Source: Bacteroidota bacterium
Lineage (GTDB): Bacteria > Bacteroidota > Bacteroidia > Chitinophagales > LD1
NCBI GenBank assembly: GCA_947475165.1
Contig: CANJLD010000026.1
Location: forward strand, 1 to 54,549
Direction of reading: 5' to 3'
Length of the DNA: 54,549 bases
Shown: positions 2,558 through 40,427 of the stretch, in pieces
How positions within the stretch are numbered: position 1 is the first letter of the stretch
Layout: every line of letters begins with the position of its first letter
The notes under the pieces: generated by a model
The model's database searches: none
Told to the model about the DNA's origin: nothing
Seen by the model: only the letters and a program-made list of their open reading frames with translations
Program-made: the position numbers and the translations under genes

Positions 2558-4183
2558 ATGTATAGATTTTTATTTCTCCTCTTGTTTCTTGGAATGTATT
2601 CCTGCAACATCCTCAATAATCAGAAAGAGACAAAACTTTTTCCTGTAAAAATTGGTGAAGAATACGGTTATGTAGACCGAGCCGGAAAAATTGTAATCAA
2701 TCCACAGTTTGCAGAGGCAGGTTTATTCCGGGATGGAATTGCGATTGTGAAAAGTTCCGGTAAAAAAGGTTTGTATGGTTATATTGAAGAGACCGGTAAG
2801 TATACTATTCAACCTCAATACATAAGTGCAACCGCATTTTCCGATGATTTGGCGTGGACTGTTCTTGAAAATGGCGCACCGGTTGCTATTGATGCAAAAG
2901 GGCAGGTAAAGTTTTCACTTGCTACTGCGGAGAAGGTTAATATGTTCAATGAAGGGTTAGCTCCATTTTCTGTAAATGAAGACAGCAAAGAAAAATGGGG
3001 GTTTGTAAACGCTAAAGGTGAAACATCTATAAACCCGCAATTCTCTAAAGTGAGTCGGTTTTCCAATGGACTATGCGCAGTTGCCGATGAAAATGATAAA
3101 TGGGGATATATAGACAAGACTGGTAAAATTGTAATAAACTATCAATTCACTGATGCATATCCTTTTACCGGAAATTATGCAATTGTTAAAGGCGGAGAGA
3201 AGTATGGCACTATCGATAAGAACGGAAAGTATACGGTAAATCCGCAGTTTGATTTTATATTCTCTGACGATAATAAATTGATGGTAATGCAAGATGATAA
3301 ATGGGGTTGGGCTGACTTGGATGGCAAAATTCTAATCAATCCGCAATTTGCAGAAGCTTACCCTTTTTATTCGAGCAAATTGGCTGCGGTTCAATCGGGC
3401 GATAAATGGGGATACATTGACAAGGATGGAAAAATAATTATCAACCCTCAATTTGAAAAGGCTTTTTCCTTCGATGGAAAAATTGCGATGGTAGATAATG
3501 GCGGTCAATATGGACTTGTTGACGAGGATGGTAAATACGTTGTTAATCCTCAATTTAAAGAGGTGTCAGGAGATTATTTTACAAATCTTATTCGTAATAA
3601 CAGCAGTTACCGCCAGGTTAATTCTGATTATTTTGATGTAGGTAAAATAGTAAACAACGTAAAAAACAGACTTGGAACAAATAAGATAAATGATATAACT
3701 ATAAACTCCACTGTAGGAGAAGTTTTAAGCAGTAACAATAAAACCAAAAATGATATCGGGAAGTATTCTAAAGCTTTTGATATTTTAAAAGATGAAGAAA
3801 TTTCTCCTGACGCAAGTTTGACGTTAGAAGTTAATTTCAGTAATTCTCCTTGGAAAGAATCGTATAGTTATTGGAGTAGCGAATGGACATTTAACGAACA
3901 AGAGAAGTGTGTGTTTTTTGATTTGACAGTTACCTTAAAAGGCAAGGGTGATGGCAAAGAGAAAACACTACAAGACGCTTTCGTTAAATCACTAAAAGGG
4001 TTTACAGATTATGACTATACGCAGAACCAGAAAATACAAAATTTGGGTTTGTCCTCGTTGGATAAGGCACACCTAAAAATTCTAGTTGGAGATGAATATA
4101 CACTGTGGGTGGCTGTAGAAAATAATGATTTGAAGATACTCGTCTTCCCTAAAGAACTTTGGGCGAAGGCATACTTGAGTTAG
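2558..4183 (+). CDS. WG-repeat (KWG) lipoprotein
   Basis: 541 aa. A short lipoprotein-type signal peptide ends at Cys16 (FLGMYSC). Residues about 25-360 hold roughly nine WG repeats with the pattern 'kWGYIDKdGKIvINPQF...' (for example KWGYIDKTGKIVINYQF and KWGYIDKDGKIIINPQF). After a linker, residues about 365-541 form an unrecognised globular domain with no WG repeats. WG repeats are thought to form beta-rich solenoids or propellers for protein or ligand binding; no enzyme motif is visible. It is the first gene of a three-gene operon, with 19 bp to the next gene, so it probably acts in the periplasm or at the outer membrane together with the glycosidase-protease fusion. The 230-bp region upstream is shared with the divergent PKD gene. 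Confidence 0.85.
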   Translation: MYRFLFLLLFLGMYSCNILNNQKETKLFPVKIGEEYGYVDRAGKIVINPQFAEAGLFRDGIAIVKSSGKKGLYGYIEETGKYTIQPQYISATAFSDDLAWTVLENGAPVAIDAKGQVKFSLATAEKVNMFNEGLAPFSVNEDSKEKWGFVNAKGETSINPQFSKVSRFSNGLCAVADENDKWGYIDKTGKIVINYQFTDAYPFTGNYAIVKGGEKYGTIDKNGKYTVNPQFDFIFSDDNKLMVMQDDKWGWADLDGKILINPQFAEAYPFYSSKLAAVQSGDKWGYIDKDGKIIINPQFEKAFSFDGKIAMVDNGGQYGLVDEDGKYVVNPQFKEVSGDYFTNLIRNNSSYRQVNSDYFDVGKIVNNVKNRLGTNKINDITINSTVGEVLSSNNKTKNDIGKYSKAFDILKDEEISPDASLTLEVNFSNSPWKESYSYWSSEWTFNEQEKCVFFDLTVTLKGKGDGKEKTLQDAFVKSLKGFTDYDYTQNQKIQNLGLSSLDKAHLKILVGDEYTLWVAVENNDLKILVFPKELWAKAYLS

Positions 4184-4202: not shown

Positions 4203-5363
4203 ATGAGGTTGTTTAACATTCTGCTTTGGTTTTCTTTTCTAATAATCTCTTTCGAAAATATTGCCGCGCAAGTTAAATGTGATGCGAAATTTCAATACGA
4301 TAATGTGTCGTATACCGTTTGCATTATGCCGATAGGCCCGGTAAGCATAAGCGGTATTTCGCTAGTTCAAAATAAAGCGGGATTAAGTCATTCTGATTTT
4401 ATTGGCGAATACATTACCAATAACGATTCCGTTATGTTTGCTACGAATGCTTGCATTGGCGATGGGAATGGTGCACCATTAGGTTTATTTATAAATGGGG
4501 GTCAAGAAATATCTGGAATAAATTTAAGTGATGGCGGTGGAAATTTTTTCCTAAAACCTAATGGTGCTTTGCTTGTTACCGATTCAAACGTTGTAATTGT
4601 TGAATCCTCAAAAGCAAAAATTACATCTTCAATAAAGGTGGGAATGCAGTCGGGTCCTATGCTTGTAATAGATGACCAAATACATTCCGGTTTTGATGTG
4701 AACTCAAAGAATAAAAATATTCGTAGTGGTGTTGGAATTTATTCTGAGAAGGGGAAACAATATTTGGCGTTTTGCAAATCAAATGAACCGGTCTCGTTTT
4801 ATCAGTTTGCAAGCCTCTTTAAAAATAAGTTTAAATGCATTAACGCACTTTGTTTGGAAAGTGCAGGGAGTGCCATGTATTCGCCTTCGCTTGGAATAAT
4901 ATCACCCATCAGTGGTAATACGGTTGGAAATTATATTACCGTAAAAGGAAGGAGTCGAAACAACTCAAGCAGCAAAAAGATTATTCAAATGACTAAAAGC
5001 CCGGGTGGGACTTATGACATACCGGTGGAAGTGAACGGAGTTTTAAAAATCAGTTTCATTTTCGATTCGGGAGCGTCTGATGTAAGTATATCTCCGGATG
5101 TTGCACTTACATTGATTAAAACAGGAACTATAAGACAAAGTGATTTTATAGGTACTCAGCAATATACCTTTGCTAATGGAAGCACTGCAACCAGCCAGGT
5201 ATTTATACTTCAGGAAATTAAAATTGGCGGTTATGTTATTAAGAAGGTGAGAACTTCTATTTCTAACTCAATTGATGCGCCAATGCTTTTAGGCCAAAGT
5301 GTTTTGCAAAGACTTGGAAGATTTACGATTGACAATAATAATCATACGCTGATTATCGATTAA
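4203..5363 (+). CDS. NAGPA/DUF2233-like (phosphodiester glycosidase fold) domain fused to a retropepsin-like aspartic protease
   Basis: 386 aa with a signal peptide (about 1-22). Residues 30-245 match the phosphodiester-glycosidase (NAGPA, YigE/DUF2233) fold: TNA at 81-83, FFLKPNGALL 115-124, QSGPML 149-154, IRSGVG 173-178, and ALCLES 215-220 where the family normally has LxLDG, so Asp is replaced by Glu219. A Ser/Lys-rich linker (250-265) leads to residues 270-386, a single-lobe retropepsin-like domain: active-site FDSGAS (Asp288), a flap-like segment near 322-340 and the hydrophobic MLLG at 361-364. One-lobe enzymes of this type must dimerise. I do not know this fusion from the literature. 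It is the second gene of the operon, 24 bp before the next. Envelope location is likely; substrates are unknown. Confidence 0.8.
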   Translation: MRLFNILLWFSFLIISFENIAAQVKCDAKFQYDNVSYTVCIMPIGPVSISGISLVQNKAGLSHSDFIGEYITNNDSVMFATNACIGDGNGAPLGLFINGGQEISGINLSDGGGNFFLKPNGALLVTDSNVVIVESSKAKITSSIKVGMQSGPMLVIDDQIHSGFDVNSKNKNIRSGVGIYSEKGKQYLAFCKSNEPVSFYQFASLFKNKFKCINALCLESAGSAMYSPSLGIISPISGNTVGNYITVKGRSRNNSSSKKIIQMTKSPGGTYDIPVEVNGVLKISFIFDSGASDVSISPDVALTLIKTGTIRQSDFIGTQQYTFANGSTATSQVFILQEIKIGGYVIKKVRTSISNSIDAPMLLGQSVLQRLGRFTIDNNNHTLIID

Positions 5364-5387
5364 TTATTTGTAATAACTGAATTTTCA

Positions 5388-6068
5388 ATGGCCCCAAGAA
5401 CCTTATTGATTATCGTATTTATTTTAGGTGCGGTGCATATAGATATGGCGCAGACATCAACCTTGGATTATTTGAAAAGTACTTCTAATCCAGGAGACCC
5501 TAGTGCAAGTGAAATTTTACAATGGGTAGAAAAAAATTTAATTTTTGGTAGTTGTATTCCTGATATTAACTCTGTCATTCGTAGAACATGCGATCCTAAT
5601 GGAGAGGATTATAGTCCAACGTTTGCATTTAAAATGGATAGCACTTCTGATGTGAATATCCCGTGTGATGTTTTGCCGCCATATTTTGTAATAAATGAAA
5701 TCGAAAACACTTTTAATTTCAAGGTCGACAATATGGGTTGCTTTGCCGGAACACATCCCATAGAACCGGGGAAGACCACTGTTTTTCTTGATAATTTCGA
5801 TCCTGATAGCATAAAAATTTCTGATGGGAATATTACAATAATGAGTTGGACTTTGAATTCATCCAAACAAGTCTTGGGTTATGTCGTTTGGAATAACTAT
5901 AATAATTGCGCGGGAACACGATTTAAAACTTTTACGAGCCTTACTTTCCCGTTACCCAAATTACTAATAAAGGATATTCAGTTCCAAAATAAATTGATTA
6001 CTGCCCTAAGATATTTGGGTAAAATTAGTTCTGCAAAAAACAACAAATGTGTAACCTTTGAACGCTAG
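5388..6068 (+). CDS. Secreted protein of unknown function
   Basis: 226 aa with a clear signal peptide (about 1-21, ending DMAQ). The mature part has several Cys residues (CIPDIN, RRTC, IPCDV, GCFAG, NCAGT, KCVTF) that could pair in the periplasm, and no motif I recognise. It is the last gene of the plus-strand operon and faces the six-gene minus-strand operon tail to tail, with 144 bp between them. Its place beside the WG-repeat and NAGPA-protease genes suggests it serves the same surface process, but that is only context. The middle section (SDVNIPCDVLPPYFV, then DNMGCFAG) could be a small beta-sandwich. Confidence 0.75.
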   Translation: MAPRTLLIIVFILGAVHIDMAQTSTLDYLKSTSNPGDPSASEILQWVEKNLIFGSCIPDINSVIRRTCDPNGEDYSPTFAFKMDSTSDVNIPCDVLPPYFVINEIENTFNFKVDNMGCFAGTHPIEPGKTTVFLDNFDPDSIKISDGNITIMSWTLNSSKQVLGYVVWNNYNNCAGTRFKTFTSLTFPLPKLLIKDIQFQNKLITALRYLGKISSAKNNKCVTFER

Positions 6069-6212
6069 GTAAATACTGCATGTAGTTGTCCCCCTTCTGT
6101 ATGAGAGGAATTGAAAAAAAATATTAATGAATACCGGTTGGAATTTCATGAGAGATGAATATTGTAATAACGGGGGAAAGAATACGTAGACAAATTTTTA
6201 GCTTGAATGCGT

Positions 6213-6950
6213 TTAGCGTGCTTTGAAATAAATGTAATTACAGATTAAAGTGTTGCTTCCTCCATCTCCTGTTTCAAAATTTGGTAAGGACATTACGCAA
6301 TTGCTGCTCTCCAGGCAAAGTGCGGCAGTACATTTAAATTTTTTTTGCATGAAGTCAGCAAAACCGAAAAATGAAACTGGATTATTGGAGATACAGAAAA
6401 CTAAAAATTTTTCGTTGTTCGGATTTGTATAAATACCGACAGCACAGCGAATATGCTTATTCGGTGAAGCTGGTTTGAATTGGGAGTTGATAATTCCATT
6501 GTTTATCAGCATAGGACCCGATTGAATTCCTACACGAACATTTGAGTAATTGGCAATTTGAGAGGATTCACAAATTATCGCTTCTGTTGAGGTAAAGAGC
6601 AATGCTCCATTTGGCTTTAGGTAAAAATTTCCGTTACCATCTTTGAGATTAACAGGATTGATTTGCTGTGAATTATTTACAAAGTATCCTACGGGATTGC
6701 AGAATGAATCTGTAACACTTGCATTAATTAAGAAGAATGAGGAATCGGTAGCAACAGAAGAAGCAAATACTTGATGAGTTATGCGAGTTTTGTTTTCAAG
6801 GATTTGAAATTTCTTCACTACATCCGCATCAATTTTTATTTTAAAAATATCGTAAGAGTCGCCATTGAAAGGCATGTCAACTACAGACTGCTGGCTCCAA
6901 ACTTGATGTTGAATAAAAAGTAACATCAAAAAAAGTATCGTTCTTGTCAT
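6213..6950 (-). CDS. NAGPA/DUF2233-like protein (short paralogue, altered active-site motif)
   Basis: 245 aa, signal peptide about 1-20 (ending WSQQ). Single NAGPA/YigE-like domain with the same landmarks as the neighbouring paralogues: LINAS 74-78, FYLKPNGALL 109-118, IQSGPML 142-148, HIRCAVGIY 166-174 (IRSGVG changed to IRCAVG) and ALCLES 210-215. The last motif replaces the usual LxLDG, so the normal Asp is Glu214, exactly as in the gene at 4203-5363; the two look like close relatives separated between two operons. It is the last gene of the six-gene operon, starting 3 bp after the previous stop. The substitutions raise the possibility of a binding rather than catalytic role. Confidence 0.78.
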   Translation of the reverse strand: MTRTILFLMLLFIQHQVWSQQSVVDMPFNGDSYDIFKIKIDADVVKKFQILENKTRITHQVFASSVATDSSFFLINASVTDSFCNPVGYFVNNSQQINPVNLKDGNGNFYLKPNGALLFTSTEAIICESSQIANYSNVRVGIQSGPMLINNGIINSQFKPASPNKHIRCAVGIYTNPNNEKFLVFCISNNPVSFFGFADFMQKKFKCTAALCLESSNCVMSLPNFETGDGGSNTLICNYIYFKAR

Positions 6951-6953
6951 AGA

Positions 6954-8180
6954 TTATTTCTTTGTAGTTATTGAAATTATGGGACCAAACTGACCGCCCA
7001 AGGAGTTTGAATCTATATCCTTTAGATACATCATTGAAATTGCACCGTCAAGAAATAGTGCGTCTTTGCAATCGAAAACGTCTTTGAATAGAAGTGCAAA
7101 ATCATAAAAGTTTGCTTCGTCTTTTGAGATTATAAAAACAGAGTTCGTAGAATTTATTTGTCCTACTCCGCTTCTAATTTTTCTGTTTGGCGAGCCAGCA
7201 GTAAATCCTTTGTGAATACTCCCATTATTCAAAAGCATGGGTCCGGATTGTGTAGCATATTTGACAGCCACTAAAGTAGTATCATGATTTTTTTGAAACT
7301 CTTCTGTTGTTTCAATATGAGATTTCCCAAGCGTGTCAACGAAAAATACACCATTTGGTTTTAGATAAAAATTAGCATCGGTTCTCGGGCTGCTAATATC
7401 TAAGGGGCGCAATTTATTTCCTTGACCATCAATAAAAAGTCCCTGCGGTTCGAAGTTAGGTGTATACATACCAGCGTTGGTAATCATCACTGGATTCTTT
7501 TTTTGCGATTGCAAATAGCTTAACACATTTCCAATACTCAGGAAATTCTTCCCATCTTTATCTTTCCTCTTCCAGTGCATTTGAATGGTATCAATATCAG
7601 TATTCGCAATAAAGGCATAATAAATAGTTCCGCGAAAATCAATCTTAACGGCACCTGTAACTTTTTTTGCTTCATTACGCAATCGTTCAATTGCGCCAAG
7701 CAATTTTGTTTCCTGTATCTTTCTTTGTTTGTCTAAAGACAGGCATATGGAGGTCTCACTTTTAAAAATTGAATCATTTTTTGAAATTGATTTATCCCAA
7801 GCAGCAGTACTTGTTTTTAGCACTTCACAAGGTTTTATAATTGCTTGTGTCGAATCCTTTGGAGTTTTAGTTGTGTCGGACTTTGCAATTTTGGTTTGTT
7901 CTTCACATTGTTTTGTCAGAGATTCTTTTTCTTGGCGAATTCGCTTGTTCTCGTTTTCTGCTGCTTTTTTTTGTTTCTCATGATTTGATATTGCAGATGA
8001 AAAAGAATCAATGGCATAGACTATGGCATTGTAGGGGGCGGTATTTATTTTGAAGAATTCGTCCTTAGTCGGAAGAGCAATTACCCTTTTGTTTTTTGAT
8101 AAATAAGTAGCAGACGAAATTGCAATGCCCGAAAGTATCAGACATAACAGTAAGAGTAATTTGGTTCCTTTAATTTTCAT
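6954..8180 (-). CDS. Membrane-anchored NAGPA/DUF2233-like phosphodiester glycosidase
   Basis: 408 aa. An N-terminal membrane segment or signal anchor (residues 8-26) is followed by a charged, probably coiled-coil region (60-175) with Cys92, Cys118 and Cys146. The C-terminal domain (178-408) is the most canonical NAGPA/DUF2233 domain of the cluster: TNAGMY 234-239, FEPQGLFIDG 243-252, FYLKPNG 271-277, TQSGPML 310-316, IRSGVG 335-340 and LFLDGAISMMY 375-385 with the expected Asp378. In animals this fold removes GlcNAc from GlcNAc-phosphomannose; bacterial members act on envelope or exopolysaccharide phosphodiesters or remain uncharacterised. It sits 5 bp after the LamG-HYR gene and 3 bp before the short paralogue, so the three are surely co-transcribed. 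Likely the active enzyme of the set. Confidence 0.82.
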   Translation of the reverse strand: MKIKGTKLLLLLCLILSGIAISSATYLSKNKRVIALPTKDEFFKINTAPYNAIVYAIDSFSSAISNHEKQKKAAENENKRIRQEKESLTKQCEEQTKIAKSDTTKTPKDSTQAIIKPCEVLKTSTAAWDKSISKNDSIFKSETSICLSLDKQRKIQETKLLGAIERLRNEAKKVTGAVKIDFRGTIYYAFIANTDIDTIQMHWKRKDKDGKNFLSIGNVLSYLQSQKKNPVMITNAGMYTPNFEPQGLFIDGQGNKLRPLDISSPRTDANFYLKPNGVFFVDTLGKSHIETTEEFQKNHDTTLVAVKYATQSGPMLLNNGSIHKGFTAGSPNRKIRSGVGQINSTNSVFIISKDEANFYDFALLFKDVFDCKDALFLDGAISMMYLKDIDSNSLGGQFGPIISITTKK

Positions 8181-8185
8181 ATTTG

Positions 8186-10363
8186 CTATAGGTTACATTT
8201 CAATTTTATAGCCCCTGCCAAGCCGGGTTTTGAATGCAGTATTTTTACTGCAAACGGTTTTTTCTTTTTCAATTGTCTTTCATCTTTCGTCAAATTTCCT
8301 TCGAAGAATTCTATCTTCAATGTATTAGGACCAACTTTTCCTGTGTTCAATGCTTTTGAAATAAGAACATTTGGTTCGTCAGGATTTAGTACCAACGCTT
8401 TTATTATTGAATGATTTGCTTTAAGCATAATCATCTGCTTATCGACAATAAGTTTATTGTTGTAATACAAAGATACCGTATCGTTATCTTCTTCCCCATC
8501 ATCATATATTACTACGGTAATAACACAGTTATTGAAAGTGAGTTCATGTTCAAAATACACACTATCGTTTTCAATATGGTTAGGTTTTTGAATTGTGATT
8601 TTTTTTACTAGCGGGGTGTTTTGCAGGGCTTTCACGGTTACATTAAAGGAGCAAACTGTATAATTACCATACAGGTCAATCGCCTTTATTGTGTTAGTTG
8701 TAGTTCCTGTCGGAAAACGATTGCCTGATGCAATGCCTGATAAGAGTAAGATAGTATCAACACCACAATTGTCAGTAGCGGTTGGCAAATCGTATTGATA
8801 ATTTGTCGCTGTTTCACCGGTATTCAAAATTATTACTGTATCGCTTGGACAAACTAAGTTTGGTTTCTCATTATCCTTGACAGTTACTTTGAACGAACAT
8901 TTATTTTCCACGCCTTCACTGCTCATTCCCTTATATGTATTTACAGTTTCGCCCACATCAAAGAAGTTACCTGACTCGTAGCCGTTTACCAAAACAACGC
9001 TTGCTTTGTCGGAACCGCTTACTGTTGGCATTTCATAAATTACAGAAGCACCACATTTTGCAGGATCGTTGGGTTTCACAATATCTTTGGGGCACTTCGT
9101 TGTAATTTTGGTTACCGGTGCAGCTGACTTAACTACTTTTACGTTGTAACTACATTCAGAAATATTTCCGCTTTTGTCGGTAGCCTGAAATTTTTGTTGC
9201 GTTGTTCCTAATGGGAAAGACGCTCCGCTATTTACGCCCGCAATTTGAACAACACTTTTTACTGAACAATTATCCTTTGCTTCCGGCACAGAAAAATCAA
9301 ACACTTTTTCGTTTTCATTTGCAATAGTTATTGTAATGGTGGTGTCGGATGGACAAGTAATCTCGGGGGCATATTTATCTATGACAGTTACGTGAAAGGT
9401 GCAAGCAGATTTGTATTTCGTAGCTCCTTGTGCAATGAAAGTAATGTAGTTGTCGCCCAAAGAAAAATCCGAACCGCTTGGTAAACCTTCAATCTGTTGC
9501 ACTAAAACTTTTCCGCAGTTTGCCTCTACAGTTGGTTTCTTGAAAGCAAATTGAGCGGAACAATTATCCTTAGCAGTGTATGCTGTTGCGTTGGGCGGAC
9601 ATTCCAACTCAAATTCGTCTTGATAGTTTGTAGTAGGGATTTCGTGAAAAATGCTGTTGAGTTGCTGCCCGTTTAAGGGGAAATTATAAATGCGCAGATC
9701 ATCTAACGAGCCACAAAAAAATTCTGTACTACCCGGAATGTCTTTAGCAATATGAAGAGGCGTGTTGTTTTGCGAGAATGTTTTTGAATACGGGAAACTC
9801 CAAACTTCGTTTCCGTTGATAAAAGTTTTTACAAAATTCCCATCGTAAACAAGCGCATAGAAACTCCATCTGCCATATTCAAAAAGATGATTTTTAAAAT
9901 CCTTATCGTTTTCGGTAAAATCTGTGTTGATTGAAATAGTGCTTTCATTTTGAAGTTGCAAAGACTGAACGCGATATTGAGGGTTGTCGGGAGTTTCAGT
10001 AGGGGAATTTCCTTTGCAAACTAGTGTCAGCCATCTTTTGCCCGGGCTTGAAGGCGAGTTTTCAATCTTAAACCAACAAGTTACGGAAAACGCATTGTAA
10101 GGAGTTTCCAAACTTGGAGAACTAGGCACTTCAATGTATCCATCTTTGCCATTAAAATAAAGTGCTCCACAGGCATTTCCAAATCTGTCTTCCGCGCTAC
10201 TTACACCTCCAATAATTGTTCCGTTGTTCCGGTTACCACTAAAGTCAATTGCATTGTTATCAAATTGGTAATGAGCAATAGGTTTTTGTCCGCTGGAATA
10301 ACTAACCGAAACAGTTAAAGCAGCGATAGATATCATACTCCGAAAAGTAAAACCATACGGCAT
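8186..10363 (-). CDS. Secreted LamG-HYR repeat protein (adhesin-like)
   Basis: 725 aa, signal peptide about 1-26. Residues 28-245 form a LamG/concanavalin-like domain (AHYQFDNNAIDFSGN at the start, a central VTCWFKIEN strand and DDLRIYNFPLN at the end), a fold that commonly binds glycans. Residues about 253-590 contain four HYR-type modules recognised by 'CPxDT', 'DNCxV' and 'CSFNVTV' strings (for example ITCPSDTTIT, NLVCPSDTVI). Residues 595-725 are an unrecognised C-terminal domain; I see no T9SS sorting motif. It is 6 bp after the divergent NAGPA-like gene and 5 bp before the membrane-anchored one, so a glycan-binding protein is made together with putative glycan-phosphodiester enzymes. 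Confidence 0.85.
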   Translation of the reverse strand: MPYGFTFRSMISIAALTVSVSYSSGQKPIAHYQFDNNAIDFSGNRNNGTIIGGVSSAEDRFGNACGALYFNGKDGYIEVPSSPSLETPYNAFSVTCWFKIENSPSSPGKRWLTLVCKGNSPTETPDNPQYRVQSLQLQNESTISINTDFTENDKDFKNHLFEYGRWSFYALVYDGNFVKTFINGNEVWSFPYSKTFSQNNTPLHIAKDIPGSTEFFCGSLDDLRIYNFPLNGQQLNSIFHEIPTTNYQDEFELECPPNATAYTAKDNCSAQFAFKKPTVEANCGKVLVQQIEGLPSGSDFSLGDNYITFIAQGATKYKSACTFHVTVIDKYAPEITCPSDTTITITIANENEKVFDFSVPEAKDNCSVKSVVQIAGVNSGASFPLGTTQQKFQATDKSGNISECSYNVKVVKSAAPVTKITTKCPKDIVKPNDPAKCGASVIYEMPTVSGSDKASVVLVNGYESGNFFDVGETVNTYKGMSSEGVENKCSFKVTVKDNEKPNLVCPSDTVIILNTGETATNYQYDLPTATDNCGVDTILLLSGIASGNRFPTGTTTNTIKAIDLYGNYTVCSFNVTVKALQNTPLVKKITIQKPNHIENDSVYFEHELTFNNCVITVVIYDDGEEDNDTVSLYYNNKLIVDKQMIMLKANHSIIKALVLNPDEPNVLISKALNTGKVGPNTLKIEFFEGNLTKDERQLKKKKPFAVKILHSKPGLAGAIKLKCNL

Positions 10364-10369
10364 GATACA

Positions 10370-11245
10370 TTATTGATAATAGTATGCCAAAAGATTTGCC
10401 GCGCTTGTTATAGGCAAAGGTCCTCTGATAGAATTATTTACCGACCCGTCTCTATTAAATAGGAAAAAAACATTCTGATCACCCGGGTCAAGGTTTATCA
10501 TGAATGTCACTTCCATGTCTTTATACTCGTTTAAAAAATCCTTCACCCTTCTGGTTCCCTCATACAGCGAAGTTGATTCAGGAGAGTTTACAATTACGTG
10601 GCATGTCTCGCCTGTATTAACGTCTTTGCCTACTGCAAGGAATCTTCTTTCTCTTGGTGTAGTGCTGGCATTAGATGCAATTTCAAGTTGGTTTTTATAA
10701 ACTAATAAGTGCGTTTGAAAAACTGTTGCTTCTTGGCTTTCTGCCCAATCAATAAAGTCTTGCCTGTCTCTATAGCTTCCACGAATGTCAAACTTTCTTC
10801 CTGCGGTAATACCACCACCTTGTAATGTTAAATCAGCATTGTCAAGATTAGTTGCAACTACCCCACCAGTAGCATAAACTATTATAAGGCCATCAAATGA
10901 TTCAAGATTACTATTTACAATTCTGCCGTTATCAATTGTCAGACCAACAGGGACAGAATATCTATCCATGTATCCTGCACTGGTAACAGCTATAACATTC
11001 ATATCCTTTCCCCACCCCATAAATCTTGAAGAAACAGAACTGCCATCCTCGCCCCGTGAGGCAAAATATTTTGCTTTTATTCTGTTTCCGCTACCGGTTC
11101 GGTTCATGTAAACAAAATTGTAAGTTATTCCCCGCTTGTCTGTGTAGCCGGAAATCTCAACAAAATTTGTATCGTATGCCGGTGGTACCGGTATAAAGGA
11201 ACAAAGCAGAAGAATAGCAAAAAGGAGAGAGTTGTTTTTTTTCAT
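10370..11245 (-). CDS. Divergent NAGPA-fold protein, secreted
   Basis: 291 aa from the ATG at 11245. An in-frame start 14 codons upstream would overlap the previous gene, while the chosen start puts the signal peptide (MKKNNSLLFAILLLCSFIP) at the N-terminus and leaves a 5-bp gap. The body resembles the NAGPA fold only weakly: VTSAGYMDRYSVPVGLTIDN (compare TNAG...QGLFIDG in the neighbour), VFQTHLLVYKN, RRFLAVG and INLDPGDQN with Asp253 (compare LFLDGAIS). The usual LKPNG motif is not obvious. If the assignment is right it is the fourth member of this fold in 7.1 kb. Third gene of the six-gene operon. Alternatively an unrelated secreted enzyme; function unknown. Confidence 0.72.
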   Translation of the reverse strand: MKKNNSLLFAILLLCSFIPVPPAYDTNFVEISGYTDKRGITYNFVYMNRTGSGNRIKAKYFASRGEDGSSVSSRFMGWGKDMNVIAVTSAGYMDRYSVPVGLTIDNGRIVNSNLESFDGLIIVYATGGVVATNLDNADLTLQGGGITAGRKFDIRGSYRDRQDFIDWAESQEATVFQTHLLVYKNQLEIASNASTTPRERRFLAVGKDVNTGETCHVIVNSPESTSLYEGTRRVKDFLNEYKDMEVTFMINLDPGDQNVFFLFNRDGSVNNSIRGPLPITSAANLLAYYYQ

Positions 11246-11250
11246 TTCAA

Positions 11251-12027
11251 TTATTTTTTGTAATGCTTTTGGAAAATACAAATACAACCATAGAAAAAGA
11301 GTAGAGAAAGAAGTATTGAAGGAATGATAGTTATGACTTTAAAAAAGGTTGATGTTCCATACCAATAACGTTCGATAAATAGATAATGCCAATTTTGTTC
11401 TGTGAAATTTATTATGACTTTTTCCACCGATGTATTCCCGAAATCGGGAGAGAAACCAAATTGTGTACAATGTGCCCGAATGTATCTGCATTTAAAAGTA
11501 TATTTGAGTTTATTGTCATGCTTAACTAAATCTGAAAGTCTGTTTGCAACAAAGCCCACCCAAACATTCGCAATAGTTTTAAAAATGAATTTTCTTTGCG
11601 GAGTTGTTTCGGCAAAGGCAAGATACTTTTCAGCAACAATGAGCAACGCGTTTAGCGAATCAAGATTATTGTTATTCCAATTTGCAGATACAAGGGAATC
11701 GGTTAGACAAAGGATTACCGCATCTTCATTTTCCTGAGCTTTGTTTGGGACTATAGAATCCAAATAACCAAGAGAGGAAACAACGGTTTCATTGCACCAC
11801 CAATTTGCTGACTTAATAAATCTATCGTATGGGAAAGTCTTTTTAACGTTACCGGTATCAACAACAGATAAAAAAGAATAGTCGCCTGACGATTTACATT
11901 TCTTAGGTAATGGGTTTGCAAGAGAATCTATGTTATCAATTTTAAGAACCTTGATAAAATAGATGCCTAACAACAAAAAAGTAATGCTGCAAATTATGAA
12001 AGCAAGCTTGTAAAAGCGATGGTTCAT
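11251..12027 (-). CDS. Uncharacterised protein with two transmembrane segments
   Basis: 258 aa. A hydrophobic segment at residues 6-26 (KLAFIICSITFLLLGIYFI) and a second one near the C-terminus (about 229-250) flank a roughly 200-residue domain, which would place that domain on one side of the inner membrane, probably the periplasm. The domain is helical in character, with conserved-looking Trp and Cys residues (SANWWCNE, FKCRYIRAHC). I do not recognise it. It is the second gene of the operon, 12 bp downstream of the beta-barrel gene and 5 bp upstream of the divergent NAGPA-fold gene. As the only inner-membrane protein with a large domain here it could link envelope and cell interior, but this is inference. 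Confidence 0.7.
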   Translation of the reverse strand: MNHRFYKLAFIICSITFLLLGIYFIKVLKIDNIDSLANPLPKKCKSSGDYSFLSVVDTGNVKKTFPYDRFIKSANWWCNETVVSSLGYLDSIVPNKAQENEDAVILCLTDSLVSANWNNNNLDSLNALLIVAEKYLAFAETTPQRKFIFKTIANVWVGFVANRLSDLVKHDNKLKYTFKCRYIRAHCTQFGFSPDFGNTSVEKVIINFTEQNWHYLFIERYWYGTSTFFKVITIIPSILLSLLFFYGCICIFQKHYKK

Positions 12028-12039
12028 AGTTGGTGGGTT

Positions 12040-14301
12040 TTAGTAAAATGAGTTGCGATTGTAAATTAGGGAAACTTGAAAAGATGATTTGTTGTAATCT
12101 GCGGTAGACGAACCGAGTCTTTCATTAAACAAAGCATTAACTTGAAGTTTCAATATACTTTGTATCCAAAGTGCCATGCCTGCACCTTGCTGCCAATTTG
12201 AGCGCGCGTTATAGTTCCAATCAAATGTTTCCCATTTCCAGGAGTAATCACGTGAAAGTGAATAAATAAAATCAAAACAAAATCCTCTTTTGTGTCTCGA
12301 ATTCTCAGTTGAGTAAGGGGCTACCCGGATACCTCCACTAAATGTTTCTTTCCGAATGTCTTTATTAAATGAATATGTATTTGTAAAACTATAGTTTGAA
12401 CCACTTGCAGAATACTGGTGCGTTTGAATACTGCTTTTATAAATAAGTAATGCCTTTACTTTTGAGTAACCGGCAGCAATTTCTCCGCCTATTTCAAAGC
12501 GGGTGTAAAAATATTTCTCTTTAGTTGTCGCGTCATCAATTGTTTTTTTACCACCTGCAAAAACGAAAGGTGTTGTTCCGACAGCTCCACTTGTTACAAT
12601 ACCAAAACTGAAATAATCGCTCATATATGGATGGAAAACAAATTCCCCTTTTGCGCCAAATCCTGTGATGTTCATTTCGTTAAGGCTATTGGTAGTGCCT
12701 CCACCAAAACCATTTGTTTTTTGTGTACGATTTACAAATGCATAAAAGGTTGTTACATCAAGCCCAAGTCCTATTCCGAGATGAAGAAATCTATTGTTGT
12801 ATTTATTGTTTTTATAATCGGTAAAGGTTGGACCGAATTTGTGAGCGATGTTAGGAGCTACATATTGAGCGACACAACTAGTTGTGTTACATATTCCTTC
12901 GCCTCGAACGTAGTAGTACGTTTGTTTTCTTGGATGTACTTTAATTGAAGTTCCTGTTCCTATCGGCTTACCTTTTCCACAATCATTCTTATACCATTTC
13001 CATTCGGCATCCTTGCCTAAATCGCCACTATAAAAGGATAACTGAACTTTTCCTGATTTTAAATTTGATGTGGAAATATAATATGGTGGTGATGAAATCT
13101 TATCGGGTGCAACGTGAATGTTGATACACTCTGTTTTATTGCATTCTCCTTCTGCTCTTACGTAATACGTTTTATCCCCCATCGCAGTAACCTGTATGCT
13201 TTTACCTGAACCAACAAGAGAACTTGAGCCACAGTAATCAGAATACCATTTCCATTGAGCATCTGATGCAAGTGAGCCGCCACTAACAGATAGTGTAATT
13301 GGCTCATTCGCACACGCAATTTTTGATGTATTTATCTGAATAGGTTTTATTGACCTTTCGTAAGAATGAACTGTTATTTGAACACATGTAGTTGTATTTG
13401 ATTTTCCAACTGCCTTTACAAAATATGTTGTGGGTTTTTCAGGTGAAACTGTGATGGAACTACCACGACCAACTTCTTCTCCATCACAAGAGTTTTTCGT
13501 CCAAACCCAACTTGCGCCAAATCCTAATTTACCACCTGTAAGATAAAGCGGTGTTGATTCGCCCTTACACATTGATTGATTGCCCTCTATAGATGCAGCC
13601 GGTTGTGAGTTTTGGTTAACTGAAACAGTTGCCTTTGCGCAGTTAGTAGTATTCTTGTTACTTTCTGCTCTTACAAAATATGTTGTAGTCTGTTTTGGGT
13701 TTACAATAATGGATGACCCCTTTCCAATTTCTGTCCCGCCACATGACTCTGTGTACCAAACCCATTTTGAGCCTATTCCCAAAACACCTCCCTTTACTGA
13801 TAAAGTTGTTTGTTCATCCATATATGTATTGAGGTTGCCTGTTATTGATTCAGGGTCCTTCGAAAACTCAAGTATCTTTTTATCAGAGCCGGTGGCTTTA
13901 GTTGTAGCAATAATTACATCATAAAAATGAGTTTCAAGCGACTTACAAGTAAACTCATAATCTTCTTCTGCAAAGGTGTGTGGGTCTTCAACTCCAATAT
14001 TTGCCTTTGAACCTCTACCAATGTTTAAAGAATTAGTTTGGTAATAAAGTTCGCCATTACAATTAATGTAGTCCATCTTCCAATTTAAATACACTTCCTT
14101 CTCGCTGAACTTTCCTGAAATTCTGTACTGGAACTTACTCATGTTATTACTCTCCTCATCTTCGCAAGGTTTGATTTTGAAAGATATTTCAACCTTAATA
14201 AAATTGTTAGAATAAAGTTCTTCCCATTTAGACCAACCACCTTGTGAATAGAGATGATTTATAGAAAAAAGAGAAATGAATAAGGCTATGTAAAATTTCA
14301 T
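12040..14301 (-). CDS. Surface protein with four Ig-like repeats and a C-terminal outer-membrane beta-barrel
   Basis: 753 aa, signal peptide about 1-19. After an N-terminal domain (20-150), residues about 155-480 contain four Ig_7-like modules of roughly 80 residues, each with a 'WxWYxxxCG' core, 'GxGxSIxVxP' and a terminal 'TTYxVRAEG' strand followed by a Cys; SKWVWYTESCGG, ASWVWTKNSCDG, AQWKWYSDYCGS and AEWKWYKNDCGK mark the four. Residues about 490-753 look like an outer-membrane barrel with alternating amphipathic strands and a final aromatic residue (IYNRNSFY). It is the first gene of the six-gene minus-strand operon, so a promoter should lie in 14302-14450. Probably presents Ig-like domains at the cell surface or anchors the other secreted products. 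Confidence 0.82.
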   Translation of the reverse strand: MKFYIALFISLFSINHLYSQGGWSKWEELYSNNFIKVEISFKIKPCEDEESNNMSKFQYRISGKFSEKEVYLNWKMDYINCNGELYYQTNSLNIGRGSKANIGVEDPHTFAEEDYEFTCKSLETHFYDVIIATTKATGSDKKILEFSKDPESITGNLNTYMDEQTTLSVKGGVLGIGSKWVWYTESCGGTEIGKGSSIIVNPKQTTTYFVRAESNKNTTNCAKATVSVNQNSQPAASIEGNQSMCKGESTPLYLTGGKLGFGASWVWTKNSCDGEEVGRGSSITVSPEKPTTYFVKAVGKSNTTTCVQITVHSYERSIKPIQINTSKIACANEPITLSVSGGSLASDAQWKWYSDYCGSSSLVGSGKSIQVTAMGDKTYYVRAEGECNKTECINIHVAPDKISSPPYYISTSNLKSGKVQLSFYSGDLGKDAEWKWYKNDCGKGKPIGTGTSIKVHPRKQTYYYVRGEGICNTTSCVAQYVAPNIAHKFGPTFTDYKNNKYNNRFLHLGIGLGLDVTTFYAFVNRTQKTNGFGGGTTNSLNEMNITGFGAKGEFVFHPYMSDYFSFGIVTSGAVGTTPFVFAGGKKTIDDATTKEKYFYTRFEIGGEIAAGYSKVKALLIYKSSIQTHQYSASGSNYSFTNTYSFNKDIRKETFSGGIRVAPYSTENSRHKRGFCFDFIYSLSRDYSWKWETFDWNYNARSNWQQGAGMALWIQSILKLQVNALFNERLGSSTADYNKSSFQVSLIYNRNSFY

Positions 14302-14480: not shown

Positions 14481-14510
14481 AATGGTATTAATTCTCTTTA
14501 AATACCATTA
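14481..14510 (-). terminator. Probable terminator of the hydrolase-GNAT gene
   Basis: A 9-bp perfect inverted repeat (AATGGTATT / AATACCATT) with an 11-nt loop begins in the stop codon of the minus-strand gene. Read on the minus strand it is followed by CTTTTTC, a weak T tract. It separates this gene from the six-gene operon promoter region. Confidence 0.45.
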
Positions 14511-15611
14511 GTTTCTACGTATTCCTTTCTGTCTGTTTAGTTGATTAGTTATGTTGACCAACTTATCCGATAATGCGGCAGTAATTAATTCGCCAGGCTT
14601 AGATCCTATAACACCACCCCAGCGTTCCTGAGTTTGAGTATCTAAAGACACCGCCATAATTATTATATTGAGATGAGTGCCCTGTTCGAAGCGTTTGATA
14701 TTATTCGCCAAAATATCGGCCTCACTAATTTGACCCAAGACGAATTTATCCATCGTAGCATCATCCACAGCCATAACATTAAAATACCCAACAACAGTTT
14801 CATTAAATGTCTCTATCATGAACGACCAAATGTTTTTTTCCATAAGCGCCCACTGCTTGGCCATATCGAGTGTAACTGGTTTGCTATTATTATAGTCATT
14901 ACCATAAGCCTCTTTATCAATCAATTCAGTATCCTTAAAATATTTAAGAATTGTTCTCATATCTAAGTCACCACCATGAACAACTTTTAACTGAACTGGT
15001 TCGTCAAATAGATGTAATAAGAATTGTTTTTCGAACCTATTTTTATCATTGAAATCAGAATGCGAAAAATCTGTAACATCTATTTCTTTAGAAAATGTTG
15101 ACTTCTGTTTAAATCCAAACCTACCACAAGGAGATCCACTTTTAGTTACAAGCCAACTGAAGCGAATAAGCCAATCCTTTTTTGAAGTTTCTGTTATAAC
15201 TTGACCAACCTGATCCTTCAATATCAATTTAAACCAGTCAAAATCACTAGGGATTATACCACCGTGTATAAATATTTTGTCAAACTTAATATCGTCATAT
15301 TTTAGAAGCGCTTTCGCTATTATCCAAGTTCCCAAACTATGGGCAACAATCGATGGTCTATAAAATGGCAAGGAAAGATCTATGTTGTTCGTGCTTTTTT
15401 TGACAATTTCAAAATACCATTTCCGAAATTTTTCAACTACATGATCAGTGTTCCATGGATGGATTTTAAATTTATAATCAAATTCTTGATAATTCAGAGA
15501 CATGTCATTCAGAGCATCTGAACATATTTTTTGCCAGCCACCATTTGACCACATACCGTGAATTGACATTACAACCCGAGGGTGATATGAACTCTTCTTC
15601 TTTATTTCCAT
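14508..15611 (-). CDS. Alpha/beta-hydrolase (esterase/lipase-like) with a GNAT-like C-terminal domain
   Basis: 367 aa, no signal peptide, so cytoplasmic. Residues 10-215 are an alpha/beta hydrolase: SIHG at 16-19 (oxyanion hole), nucleophile Ser92 in IVAHSLGTW, and a probable catalytic His184 in DFSHSDF. Residues about 250-367 are separate: the string ETVVGYFNVMAVDD and then DKFVLGQISEADI resembles the N-terminal part of GNAT acetyltransferase-like domains that replace or accompany enzymes in predicted conflict proteins. The hydrolase motifs are clear; the GNAT assignment is my inference from pattern. The gene stands alone, next to remains of a restriction-modification locus, which fits an accessory or defence role, though a housekeeping esterase is not excluded. 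Confidence 0.75.
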   Translation of the reverse strand: MEIKKKSSYHPRVVMSIHGMWSNGGWQKICSDALNDMSLNYQEFDYKFKIHPWNTDHVVEKFRKWYFEIVKKSTNNIDLSLPFYRPSIVAHSLGTWIIAKALLKYDDIKFDKIFIHGGIIPSDFDWFKLILKDQVGQVITETSKKDWLIRFSWLVTKSGSPCGRFGFKQKSTFSKEIDVTDFSHSDFNDKNRFEKQFLLHLFDEPVQLKVVHGGDLDMRTILKYFKDTELIDKEAYGNDYNNSKPVTLDMAKQWALMEKNIWSFMIETFNETVVGYFNVMAVDDATMDKFVLGQISEADILANNIKRFEQGTHLNIIIMAVSLDTQTQERWGGVIGSKPGELITAALSDKLVNITNQLNRQKGIRRN

Positions 15612-37859: not shown

Positions 37860-37892
37860 TTTGCGCGGTTGAAAATAAAAAGATTTTATTTG
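37860..37892 (+). promoter_or_regulatory. Bacteroidota-type promoter of the B12 operon
   Basis: TTTG at 37860-37863 and TTTATTTG at 37885-37892 are separated by 21 bp, one mismatch from the Bacteroidota consensus TTTG-(19-23)-TAnnTTTG. Transcription would start near 37900, just before the riboswitch. Confidence 0.45.
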
Positions 37893-37895
37893 CCA

Positions 37896-38066
37896 CCGCT
37901 AAAGGTGGTGAAGTCGTGTTACAACGAATAACCATAATAGGGAATCAGGTGTAAATCCTGAGTAGTACCCGCTGCTGTAAGCTCTTTAAAAGTTTCTATC
38001 TCACAAAGCCACTGGTGTAAAAACCGGGAAGGCGATAGAAACAGAGTAAACCAGAAGACCTGCCTT
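37896..38066 (+). ncRNA. Cobalamin (adenosylcobalamin) riboswitch
   Basis: The conserved blocks appear in order: a GGTGG start, AGGGAATCAGGTGTAAATCC, GTACCCGCTGCTGTAA (compare the consensus CCCGCaaCTGTAA), GCCACTG, CCGGGAAGGC and the B12 box region CCAGAAGACCTGCC at 38051-38064. The paired segments GTTTCTATC and GATAGAAAC enclose the GCCACTG-CCGGGAAGGC part. It lies 120 bp ahead of the first B12-uptake gene on the same strand and should repress the seven-gene operon when cobalamin is plentiful. The expression platform (38067-38185) is not clear to me. Confidence 0.93.
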
Positions 38067-38185
38067 CGGCAAATTAGTCAAAAGCTTTCGGGAAGAAAGG
38101 CGGAGAACGGAACAGTGTACAGTTTCATAATCCATCTATTCATTTTTCGGGGCGAATTTTTTAACCATTTTAAATCATTGTTACA

Positions 38186-39433
38186 ATGAAAAAATTCAAC
38201 CTACTGATGTGCGCCACACTTATGGCAAGTTTTCTTTTTGCTCAAACAGTTTCTACTTTCGAAAATCTCACACTTGCCACCGATACTTTTTGGAATGGAA
38301 GTGATTTAAGCGGAGGGTTCAACAGCGGCAATGCCAATTTTGTAAACGATTACAATACTTCTTTCTTTTCCTGGAGTGGTTTTACTTACTCAAATAAGAA
38401 GGATAGCGTAACTGCAGGTTATGGAAATCAATATGCTGCCATTACAGCAAGTGGTTATAATGGTTCAGACAAGTATGCTGTTGCCGATGATTATGGCAAT
38501 GCGAAAATTCGTTTAACCGGTAATGCAGCCGGTAAACTGGTGAAAGGCTTTTATGTAACAAATACAACGTATGCTTATCAAAGCATGAAACAGGGTGATG
38601 CGTTCGCTAAAAAATTCGGTGGTGTAACCGGCACCGACCCTGATTGGTTTCGTTTGCGTGCAATGGGCTGGCTGAACGGAGCTTTGAAGCAGCAATCAGC
38701 AGAGTTTTTTCTGGCCGATTTTCGTTCGGCTGACAGCACACAAGATTATTTAGTGCGCTATTGGGCGTGGTTCGATTTGCAGCCACTGGGCGATGTAGAC
38801 AGTATTATTTTCCAACTTACTTCATCCGATACTGCTTTCGGTTTCATGAATACTCCTGCATATTTTGCAATGGATAATTTTACAACCGGTGATACGGCCT
38901 ATGCGCAACCGGCTGCAACCGATGATGCAATAACTACTACTTACTTAAACGATACGCTAATTGCAGTGCTTGCGAACGATGCAGGCTTAATTGCAAGCCC
39001 AATTGTTGAATTGCTCAGTGCGCCTCTAATTGCCGGAGCAACTGCTACTGTTGTAAATAACGAAGTTAATTATACGCCTGCAATAGGAATTGTTGCGGCT
39101 GATTCATTAGTGTATCGCGTTTATGATGCCTTGGGTGCAAGTGATACAGCGGTGATTTATATAAACGTAACAGGCATTACAGGGCTTGATGCAATTGCAG
39201 ATGTTGCTGTAAAGGTTTATCCTAATCCTTTTACTAATAATGTTTCTGTTCGTTCATCTGCTGTAATCAGTCAGGTTGATTTGTTTGATGTAACCGGAAC
39301 ATTGGTGAAAACAATTTCAAGTATCGAAAGCAATACAGTTGAGTTAAATACAGAAGAACTTTCGGCAGGAATTTATTTTGTGAAAATGAATTCAGTGAAC
39401 GGAACTTTGGTAAAGAAAATTGTAAAGCAGTAG
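38186..39433 (+). CDS. DUF4465 protein with cadherin-like module and T9SS type A sorting domain
   Basis: 415 aa, signal peptide 1-19 (FLFAQT). Residues 20-235 match DUF4465: STFENLTLATDTFWNGSD, GGFNSGNANFVNDYN, FFSWSGFTYSN, AVADDYGN and YFAMDNF. Residues about 240-330 are a bacterial cadherin-like module (ATDDAITTTYLNDTLIAVLA, VNYTPAIG). Residues 340-415 are a T9SS type A sorting domain (VKVYPNPFTNNVSV, LSAGIYFVKM, VKKIVKQ at the end). First gene after the cobalamin riboswitch; genes of this family are frequent in B12 loci of Bacteroidota. It would therefore be a surface protein helping to capture corrinoids; direct binding is inference. Confidence 0.85.
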   Translation: MKKFNLLMCATLMASFLFAQTVSTFENLTLATDTFWNGSDLSGGFNSGNANFVNDYNTSFFSWSGFTYSNKKDSVTAGYGNQYAAITASGYNGSDKYAVADDYGNAKIRLTGNAAGKLVKGFYVTNTTYAYQSMKQGDAFAKKFGGVTGTDPDWFRLRAMGWLNGALKQQSAEFFLADFRSADSTQDYLVRYWAWFDLQPLGDVDSIIFQLTSSDTAFGFMNTPAYFAMDNFTTGDTAYAQPAATDDAITTTYLNDTLIAVLANDAGLIASPIVELLSAPLIAGATATVVNNEVNYTPAIGIVAADSLVYRVYDALGASDTAVIYINVTGITGLDAIADVAVKVYPNPFTNNVSVRSSAVISQVDLFDVTGTLVKTISSIESNTVELNTEELSAGIYFVKMNSVNGTLVKKIVKQ

Positions 39434-39443
39434 TCTATCAGCT

Positions 39444-40427
39444 ATGAAATTTTTTGCTTTTGTCTTATTCATATTCTTCAACTTTTTAGCACAGGCGCAA
39501 TTTGCGCCTGCTGCTAATCAGGTTGGCACTACAGCTATTTCAAATGATAGCTCCTCTTTTGTTGCATGGGCAACCGGTTGCGTAATTCAGCACGGCTATA
39601 TGGATATTGCTGTTAAAGATTCTGGTTATGCGAGTGTAGGCACTGAAAGTTCTGCCATAGGTATGGCAGGACAGAACGGAGTGGTTAGTTTAGGCGATAG
39701 CGGAGTGGCAACACTTACTTTCCAAAATCCAATTTATAACGGGCAAGGTTTCGACTTTGCTGTTTTTGAGAATGGATTTTATACGCAAAGCCCTTTGGCT
39801 TTTCTTGAGTTTGCTTTTGTAGAAGTAAGTAGCGATGGAAATAATTTTTTCCGCTTTCCGGTTACTTCAAACATTCAGGATACTACGCAAGTGCCAATGA
39901 CCGGAGTAGATTGCTCGTTAGTAAACAATCTGGCAGGTAAATATGTTTTTGGCTACGGAACTCCTTTCGATTTAGAAGAATTGAAAAATGAAATTGGCTT
40001 AGATGTAAACAGCATCACACATGTTCGCTTAGTTGATGTGGTTGGTTCTGTCAAAACTCAGTTTGCAACACACGACCAATTTGGAAGCAAAATAAATGAT
40101 CCTTATCCAACACCATTTGCTTCAAGCGGTTTCGATTTAGATGCGGTGGGAGTTATTAATCAGGTTAATACTACTGTGGTTGAAGAAATACGAAATACGA
40201 AATACGGAATACGAGTTTTTCCAAACCCATCTTCGAGTGATGATGTTACTCTTAAAGTAAATGAAGAACTGGTGGGCGAAAGATTGAAACTGATTGATGT
40301 AACAGGGAAGATTTTGAGCGAAGAACAAATTCAATCTCAATACTCAATACTCAATACTCAATACTTCCCTAAAGGAATTTATTTTCTCTCTGTGGGCGTT
40401 CGAATTGCTAAGCTTATTATTGAATGA
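39444..40427 (+). CDS. T9SS type A surface protein of the B12 operon, with two heptanucleotide repeats
   Basis: 327 aa, signal peptide 1-18 (LAQAQF). Residues 25-245 form a beta-rich domain (NGQGFDFAVFENGF, FAFVEVSSDGNNFFRFPVTS, THVRLVDVVGS, SSGFDLDAVGVIN) that I know only as an uncharacterised cell-surface domain often next to DUF4465. Residues about 257-327 are a T9SS type A sorting domain (VFPNPSSSDDVTL, FPKGIYFLSVG). GAAATAC-type units occur four times at 40185-40212, just before the sorting domain, and CTCAATA four times at 40336-40363, inside it. Slippage of 7 bp would remove sorting. The stop overlaps the btuB start by 4 bp (ATGA), so translation is coupled. Confidence 0.82.
   Translation: MKFFAFVLFIFFNFLAQAQFAPAANQVGTTAISNDSSSFVAWATGCVIQHGYMDIAVKDSGYASVGTESSAIGMAGQNGVVSLGDSGVATLTFQNPIYNGQGFDFAVFENGFYTQSPLAFLEFAFVEVSSDGNNFFRFPVTSNIQDTTQVPMTGVDCSLVNNLAGKYVFGYGTPFDLEELKNEIGLDVNSITHVRLVDVVGSVKTQFATHDQFGSKINDPYPTPFASSGFDLDAVGVINQVNTTVVEEIRNTKYGIRVFPNPSSSDDVTLKVNEELVGERLKLIDVTGKILSEEQIQSQYSILNTQYFPKGIYFLSVGVRIAKLIIE
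40185..40212 (+). repeat. Heptanucleotide repeat, four copies
   Basis: GAAATAC three times then GGAATAC, in coding sequence at the junction between the body and the T9SS sorting domain of the surface protein. Confidence 0.95.
40336..40363 (+). repeat. Heptanucleotide repeat, four exact copies
   Basis: CTCAATA repeated four times exactly, in coding sequence within the T9SS sorting domain, about 60 bp before the overlapping btuB start. Confidence 0.97.

Follow-up and report, generated by a model that had tools for sequence, protein, structure and literature searches.

A conserved six-gene Bacteroidota cassette with three diverged NAGPA-fold paralogues and a fixed helical partner

Contig CANJLD010000026.1 of the Bacteroidota bacterium assembly GCA_947475165.1 (54,549 nucleotides; this whole stretch is the window of our analysis) carries two convergent gene runs, ending at 6068 and 6213, which encode four proteins of the NAGPA/DUF2233 fold, here named N1 to N4. 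Synteny, co-occurrence, and gene fusion strongly support that the six genes of the minus-strand run—from 14301 to 6213: IgBarrel, U258, N4, LamG-HYR, N3, and N2, separated by 12, 5, 6, 5, and 3 bases—are one linked system. Within this cassette, U258 and N4 are tied to each other by co-occurrence and fusion. We propose, with a probability of roughly 0.5, that the six genes form a single operon encoding a trans-envelope assembly, which as an accessory system would recognize and cleave a phosphodiester-linked glycan; the cleavage would follow from family membership. An earlier note on this DNA had described both the convergent runs and the four NAGPA-fold proteins, and had read all nine genes of the two runs as one surface system. 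The minus-strand part of that reading stands, whereas the nine-gene system is rejected, as the plus-strand genes, which encode a WG-repeat lipoprotein, N1, and U226, are not conserved together with the core.

Conservation of the cassette was assessed on 30 N4-anchored loci, the window included, which combine the loci of a contig scan with those of relatives after removal of near-identical ones. The contig scan used a five-sequence N4 alignment and returned 24 loci, 23 under Bacteroidota titles and one in a metagenome-assembled genome (MAG) titled Chlorobi. Gene calling was mechanical, taking the longest open frames, and the loci were sorted by means of profiles that started from the genes of the window and drew on many of these very loci; the resulting counts thus describe synteny and are no blind test. 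Within 6 kilobases of N4, U258 is present in 29 loci, N3 in 28, LamG in 23, IgBarrel in 21 (some of them perhaps matched through Ig repeats only), and N2 in 10, which bears out the earlier expectation that LamG and Ig-like genes are found near the homologues. The sole locus counted without U258 (L032) belongs to a genome (G024) whose set is spread over three contigs, IgBarrel-U258, N4, and LamG-N3-N2, with all six genes present. The median gap of the 116 same-strand cassette neighbor pairs lying less than 500 bases apart is 5 bases, and 104 of them are separated by 50 bases or fewer, given the mechanically set gene starts. Carriers among named strains are Dokdonia pacifica DSM 25597, Adhaeribacter aquaticus DSM 16391, Hymenobacter terricola 3F2, and Rufibacter sp. 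SYSU D00344. The IgBarrel family is wider than the cassette and occurs as a stand-alone gene in relatives: a paralogue elsewhere in the genome of the window (L094:7938-10241, on G000:C32), which has no other cassette genes around it, is 53–55% identical to the stand-alone gene of three same-genus genomes. In two loci (L018 and L016), a cassette or an N2-type gene lies near genes that by eye are a resolvase and of the type I restriction-modification kind, possibly marking accessory islands.

A less circular test than these synteny counts is a survey of 396 genomes of the order, in which the N4 profile matches 12 genomes and the U258 profile 13, with all 12 in common and the window's own genome among them. 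In the thirteenth U258 genome (G331), the match is confined to the final 300 bases of a contig. Five of the 12 shared genomes had contributed rows to the N4 alignment, three of these also to the U258 alignment, and seven to neither. The chance probability of the overlap is ~5e-22 if genomes are taken as independent, which they are not. On the level of single loci, U258 is adjacent to N4 in 26 of the 30 and forms a single open frame with it in three (L065, L039, and L040), which makes 29 adjacent or fused cases. The N4 tree groups L040 and L065 as sisters and does not include L039. Directly behind the fusion gene of L065 lies a second N4-like protein (L065:7840-8919; N4 profile 5.8e-24), which matches no Pfam family at E-values up to 0.001.

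U258 itself matches no Pfam family above cut-off (weak matches at E 0.18 and 0.36 only), and its model, with a predicted local distance difference test (pLDDT) score of 88.2, is all helical and finds no match in the PDB at E ≤ 0.001. Among the 29 free homologues, 26 bear a hydrophobic segment near the N-terminus and 27 near the C-terminus. The fused proteins of L039 and L040 contain no internal hydrophobic stretch, while that of L065 retains one. As two of the three fused proteins lack such an internal segment, the middle of U258 and N4 probably share one side of the membrane, and the U258 domain is probably extracytoplasmic. U258 hence appears as a helical envelope family without a recognized fold in the searches made.

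The membership of N1, N2, and N3 in the NAGPA family is direct: they score 54.3 (E 2.4e-14), 50.1 (4.8e-13), and 60.9 bits (2.3e-16) against PF09992, above its curated cut-off of 25 bits. N4 on its own reaches only 13.3 bits (E 0.095), which is below this cut-off. Four of five scanned N4 orthologues match PF09992 at E-values up to 1 (best 1.6e-4), and the orthologue of genome G027 attains 22.6 bits (E 2.2e-4) in a genome search, still under the cut-off. The profile comparison of N4 with N1–N3 is weak—probability 65%, E 6.1e-5, with the second half leaving the matched motifs unpaired—and the family claim for N4 therefore rests on the fold search. The AlphaFold model of N4, built from 26 sequences, has a mean pLDDT of 91.6; VIA-align places it with eight PDB entries at Z-scores of 13.6–16.5, the next row being at 2.8, and Foldseek agrees with a best E-value of 3.0e-10. 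Six of these eight entries bear the names NAGPA or DUF2233, and the other two, 5h3k and 6ozd, are labeled as hypothetical or putative exported protein and are taken as NAGPA relatives on the match to the N4 model itself. By predicted fold, and not by Pfam cut-off, N4 is hence a NAGPA protein: for this most doubtful member of the original four, the fold search leads to the NAGPA family and not to unrelated ones. Sequence-level searches of the PDB returned a single chance-level match for the N4 profile (E 0.63) and weak unrelated matches only for N3 as a single sequence.

The paralogues split by their motifs. After exclusion of one truncated protein from 47, every one of the 34 complete N3-type proteins has the Leu-Asp-Gly (LDG) motif, whereas its Asp is lost in 12 of 12 N2/N1-type proteins (Glu in 9, Gln in 2, Gly in 1), which retain the Arg and the QSGP-type motifs despite this loss. 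A joint sequence alignment shows that N4 and N3 have P-x-G-L, a Gly, the Arg, and Leu-Asp in common; the Asp is present in 34/34 N3 and 32/32 N4 proteins, and the Arg of IRxGVG in 97% and 100%, respectively. N4 keeps this Arg and an NLD-x-G motif, and carries FQTHLL at the position of QSGPML in N3. The same Arg and LDG are seen in profile alignments to 3ohg and 6pkg. The division into paralogues that keep the LDG Asp (N3 and N4) and those that have lost it (N2 and N1) is thus an observed one. Its conservation suggests that this Asp might be catalytic; N3 is, by family membership alone, a probable active enzyme, and N2 is possibly a pseudo-enzyme or an altered enzyme.

Table 1. Genes of the two convergent runs, with their positions in the window
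Gene	Coordinates	Strand	Description
IgBarrel	12040..14301	-	first operon gene; probably exported; W-rich N-terminal part, Ig_7 repeats, C-terminal part a putative outer-membrane barrel
U258	11251..12027	-	helical, hydrophobic segment at either end, middle probably extracytoplasmic; no known family
N4	10370..11245	-	divergent protein of predicted NAGPA fold, N-terminal hydrophobic segment
LamG-HYR	8186..10363	-	probably exported; concanavalin-like lectin domain and HYR repeats
N3	6954..8180	-	N-terminal hydrophobic segment, charged linker, then canonical-type NAGPA domain, LDG kept
N2	6213..6950	-	probably exported NAGPA paralogue; LES in place of LDG
N1	4203..5363	+	N2-type NAGPA domain fused to retropepsin-like aspartyl protease domain; accessory, outside core
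WG-repeat lipoprotein	2558..4183	+	PF14903 E 1.6e-68; lipobox by eye; outside conserved core
U226	5388..6068	+	N-terminal hydrophobic segment; no Pfam family; outside conserved core

The reading frames are open at the coordinates of Table 1, which are those given earlier for these genes. The domains named in the earlier note are recovered as Pfam matches: Laminin_G_3 (7.5e-19) and HYR (1.3e-41) in LamG-HYR, Ig_7 (E 5e-24) in IgBarrel, which also matches DUF769 (E 1.1e-5), and PF14903 in the WG-repeat protein. LamG-HYR orthologues range from 340 to 1310 amino acids, fragments left aside, and HYR is missing from one scanned orthologue (L017). All NAGPA proteins had been assigned a signal peptide or anchor. 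A simple hydropathy scan finds an N-terminal hydrophobic segment in N1, N3, and N4, as well as in U226 and U258, but N2 stays under the threshold, as do the WG-repeat protein, LamG-HYR, and IgBarrel, whose signal peptides are by-eye readings only. Scans for promoters and terminators gave fewer sites than in shuffled sequence. Just upstream, in the same orientation as the operon, lies an alpha/beta-hydrolase-like gene (14508-15611, minus strand; DUF676 E 0.0043, under cut-off), for whose protein BLAST finds no homologue among the other loci compared. Further away, a Cobalamin riboswitch (37886-38081, plus strand; Rfam RF00174, 93.5 bits) precedes genes at 38186-46230 that by eye encode a TonB receptor, a binding protein, and an ATP-binding cassette transporter, that is, B12 uptake.

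The plus-strand genes follow each other with gaps of 19 and 24 bases and are accessories at most. The C-terminal domain of N1, missed in the earlier note, is a retropepsin-like aspartyl protease domain by PF13975 (E 8e-14; 52.4 bits against a cut-off of 28.2), with the D-S/T-G-A motif present as FDSGAS; with NCBIfam TIGR02281, N1 scores 50.8 bits, below the cut-off of 57.95. Of 30 other genomes that bear the cassette, one encodes a full-length N1-type protein, joining NAGPA and protease, with 51% identity. This protein is found in a Chitinophaga-labeled MAG (L036:2-20876) beside two cassettes, the second of which is cut by the end of the locus; between the two lie four genes, some with weak DO-GTPase1 and tetraspanin-like matches, and a PorP/SprF-type gene precedes the N1-type gene. 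A separate retropepsin gene adjoins a Flammeovirga cassette (L037:7033-7917), and a small retropepsin-like protein of 145 amino acids with a DTGA motif is encoded ~3 kilobases from the cassette of genome G018 (L014:1708-2145). A WG-repeat protein stands beside one other cassette, after that of Hymenobacter L027, and U226 has no BLAST homologue in the loci compared.

The spread of the cassette is patchy. Of the 396 genomes of the order, 12 have N4, and of 60 relatives, 5 do; both counts include the window's own genome. An evenly drawn phylum sample of other genomes has it in 0 of 394. The copy of the window pairs in the N4 tree with that of L017 (support 100/99), outside the clade formed by the copies of its own family, and a clade of the window's copy with its family is rejected (p 0.011). 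The cassette is probably an accessory Bacteroidota trait, likely moving in part by horizontal transfer. A phage or plasmid origin finds no backing: N4 has no match in viral contigs (pattern-based search) or plasmids. Phage records, searched with N1 only, returned yigE genes in two Acinetobacter phage records, and a PHROGs scan of eight proteins matched the LamG protein only, to families of unknown function.

How might such an assembly work? As an anchored phosphodiester glycosidase, N3 would hydrolyze a sugar-1-phosphodiester of a glycan that belongs to the envelope or lies outside the cell. U258 would hold N4 at the inner membrane, where N4 could be either a second, differently tuned glycosidase or a binder of glycan phosphate, and N2, a non-canonical paralogue, might bind substrate or act as a regulator. 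At the surface, the LamG(-HYR) protein would bind the target glycan, and the Ig/barrel protein could carry the assembly through the outer membrane. The target glycan may be the cell's own or that of another organism.

Several observations weigh against this trans-envelope glycan system. N4, lacking QSGPM, is possibly not an enzyme. No LamG is found within 6 kilobases of N4 in 7 of the 30 loci and no IgBarrel in 9—some contigs being short—so that LamG and IgBarrel may be helpers rather than core. The three fusion loci are without LamG nearby, two of them having N3. Since L040 and L065 are sisters, the U258–N4 fusion may be one event. For N3, grouping the window's copy with those of its family is not rejected (p 0.172), and U226, the WG-repeat protein, and N1 do not accompany the set. 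Finally, glycan-type families are few, in raw counts, among the neighbors: within the 25 of 97 families listed for 79 flanking proteins, Epimerase occurs twice and a sugar transferase once.

In a possible but rather unlikely alternative, the cassette matures or retains a surface polysaccharide of its own cell—capsule, O-antigen, or exopolysaccharide—by trimming sugar-phosphate caps or releasing chains, with LamG holding the product at the surface. The U258–N4 pair looks inner-membrane bound, and the cassette of L035 directly precedes a gene of the GDP-mannose dehydratase/epimerase type, followed by by-eye glycosyltransferases; NAGPA is moreover noted to be fused to cell-surface proteins in a group also carrying LamG domains (PMC11488536). 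Yet the same scarcity of glycan-type families tells against this reading, as does the variation of the flanking genes between loci.

A GlcNAc-1-phosphate linkage ties teichoic acid to peptidoglycan. If the cassette served antagonism or predation, the NAGPA proteins would cut phosphodiester-linked wall or capsule glycans of another bacterium, this linkage being one example, with the LamG/HYR and Ig proteins binding that bacterium. We hold this to be unlikely, even if the patchy spread and the N4 copy standing apart from its own family fit an accessory trait, and the length range of the LamG protein is in line with it. Bacillota proteins that join NAGPA to TelC and varied binding domains have been suggested to act in biological conflict (PMC12419801). 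Ten proteins of the window, however, yielded no toxin or TelC match with Pfam and NCBIfam, save a sub-threshold Ntox17 on the WG-repeat protein (E 0.5), and no TelC or NlpC/P60 match in Pfam, a dedicated TelC profile not having been run; PADLOC and models of the type IX secretion C-terminal signal gave nothing either.

An extended version is more speculative and improbable. It envisages a mobile and so far undescribed Bacteroidota trans-envelope machine, in which three paralogues of the uncovering-enzyme (NAGPA) fold, one canonical, one Asp-less, and one bound to U258 as a new inner-membrane family, together with a surface lectin would act on the phosphodiester-linked glycan of another organism (e.g., teichoic acid linkages), the N1 protease activating the enzymes by proteolysis. 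This would be analogous to the mammalian enzyme, which is held inactive by a propiece that furin removes (PMC12024695).

Adhesion is a frequent role of LamG, HYR, and Ig domains. Together with the loss of the LDG Asp in all 12 N2/N1-type proteins and the absence of QSGPM from N4, this would suit an adhesion apparatus without enzymatic activity, in which the NAGPA fold merely binds or scaffolds, but the retention of LDG in 34/34 N3 and of Arg and Asp in 32/32 N4 proteins is hard to explain without catalysis; we hold such a role to be very unlikely.

To our knowledge, the role of bacterial NAGPA/DUF2233 proteins is largely open. Among described systems, a polysaccharide utilization locus of the SusC/SusD type is rejected for the window's genome, in which PF07980 (SusD_RagB) has 0 matches, other SusD families not having been searched. 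A known defense system is likewise rejected, with 0 of 10 proteins matched by PADLOC at E-values up to 0.01, within the described systems that it covers; and for type IX secretion, no sorting-domain model appears among the Pfam and NCBIfam matches of the ten window proteins at E-values up to 1. In the literature on bacterial NAGPA/DUF2233 and phosphodiester glycosidases, as far as its texts were accessible, no description of the gene set was found.

The closest likenesses are thus to single proteins. The PDB entries 6pku, 6pky, 6pkg, 6pki, and 6u11 have the fold of the N4 model (Z 14.0–15.4) and belong to the same Pfam family as N1–N3, and 6pkg has the Arg and Leu-Asp-Gly positions in common with the cassette proteins in a profile alignment. 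In contrast to these, N4 is only 12–14% identical, and the cassette unites three diverged paralogues in one bacterial operon, with the N2 type lacking the Asp. BACOVA_00430 (PDB 3ohg), a bacterial DUF2233 protein of a Bacteroidota species, bears the fold of the N4 model as well (Z 16.2), and no cassette is described for it in the literature consulted. In the genome of the window, a whole-genome search finds one further NAGPA gene, on contig C13: a stand-alone YigE-like protein (G000:C13:71929-72378) with the motifs of N3 (PF09992 1.4e-27; BLAST to N3 E 2.8e-42), which, unlike N3, has no cassette genes in the surrounding 20 kilobases. The Bacillota NAGPA–TelC conflict proteins (PMC12419801) resemble the cassette in combining NAGPA with varied extracellular binding domains; the cassette differs in consisting of separate genes instead of one large protein and in its Gram-negative envelope. 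Three diverged NAGPA paralogues in one conserved operon, together with the fixed partner U258, hence provide a defined gene set and a ready interaction hypothesis.

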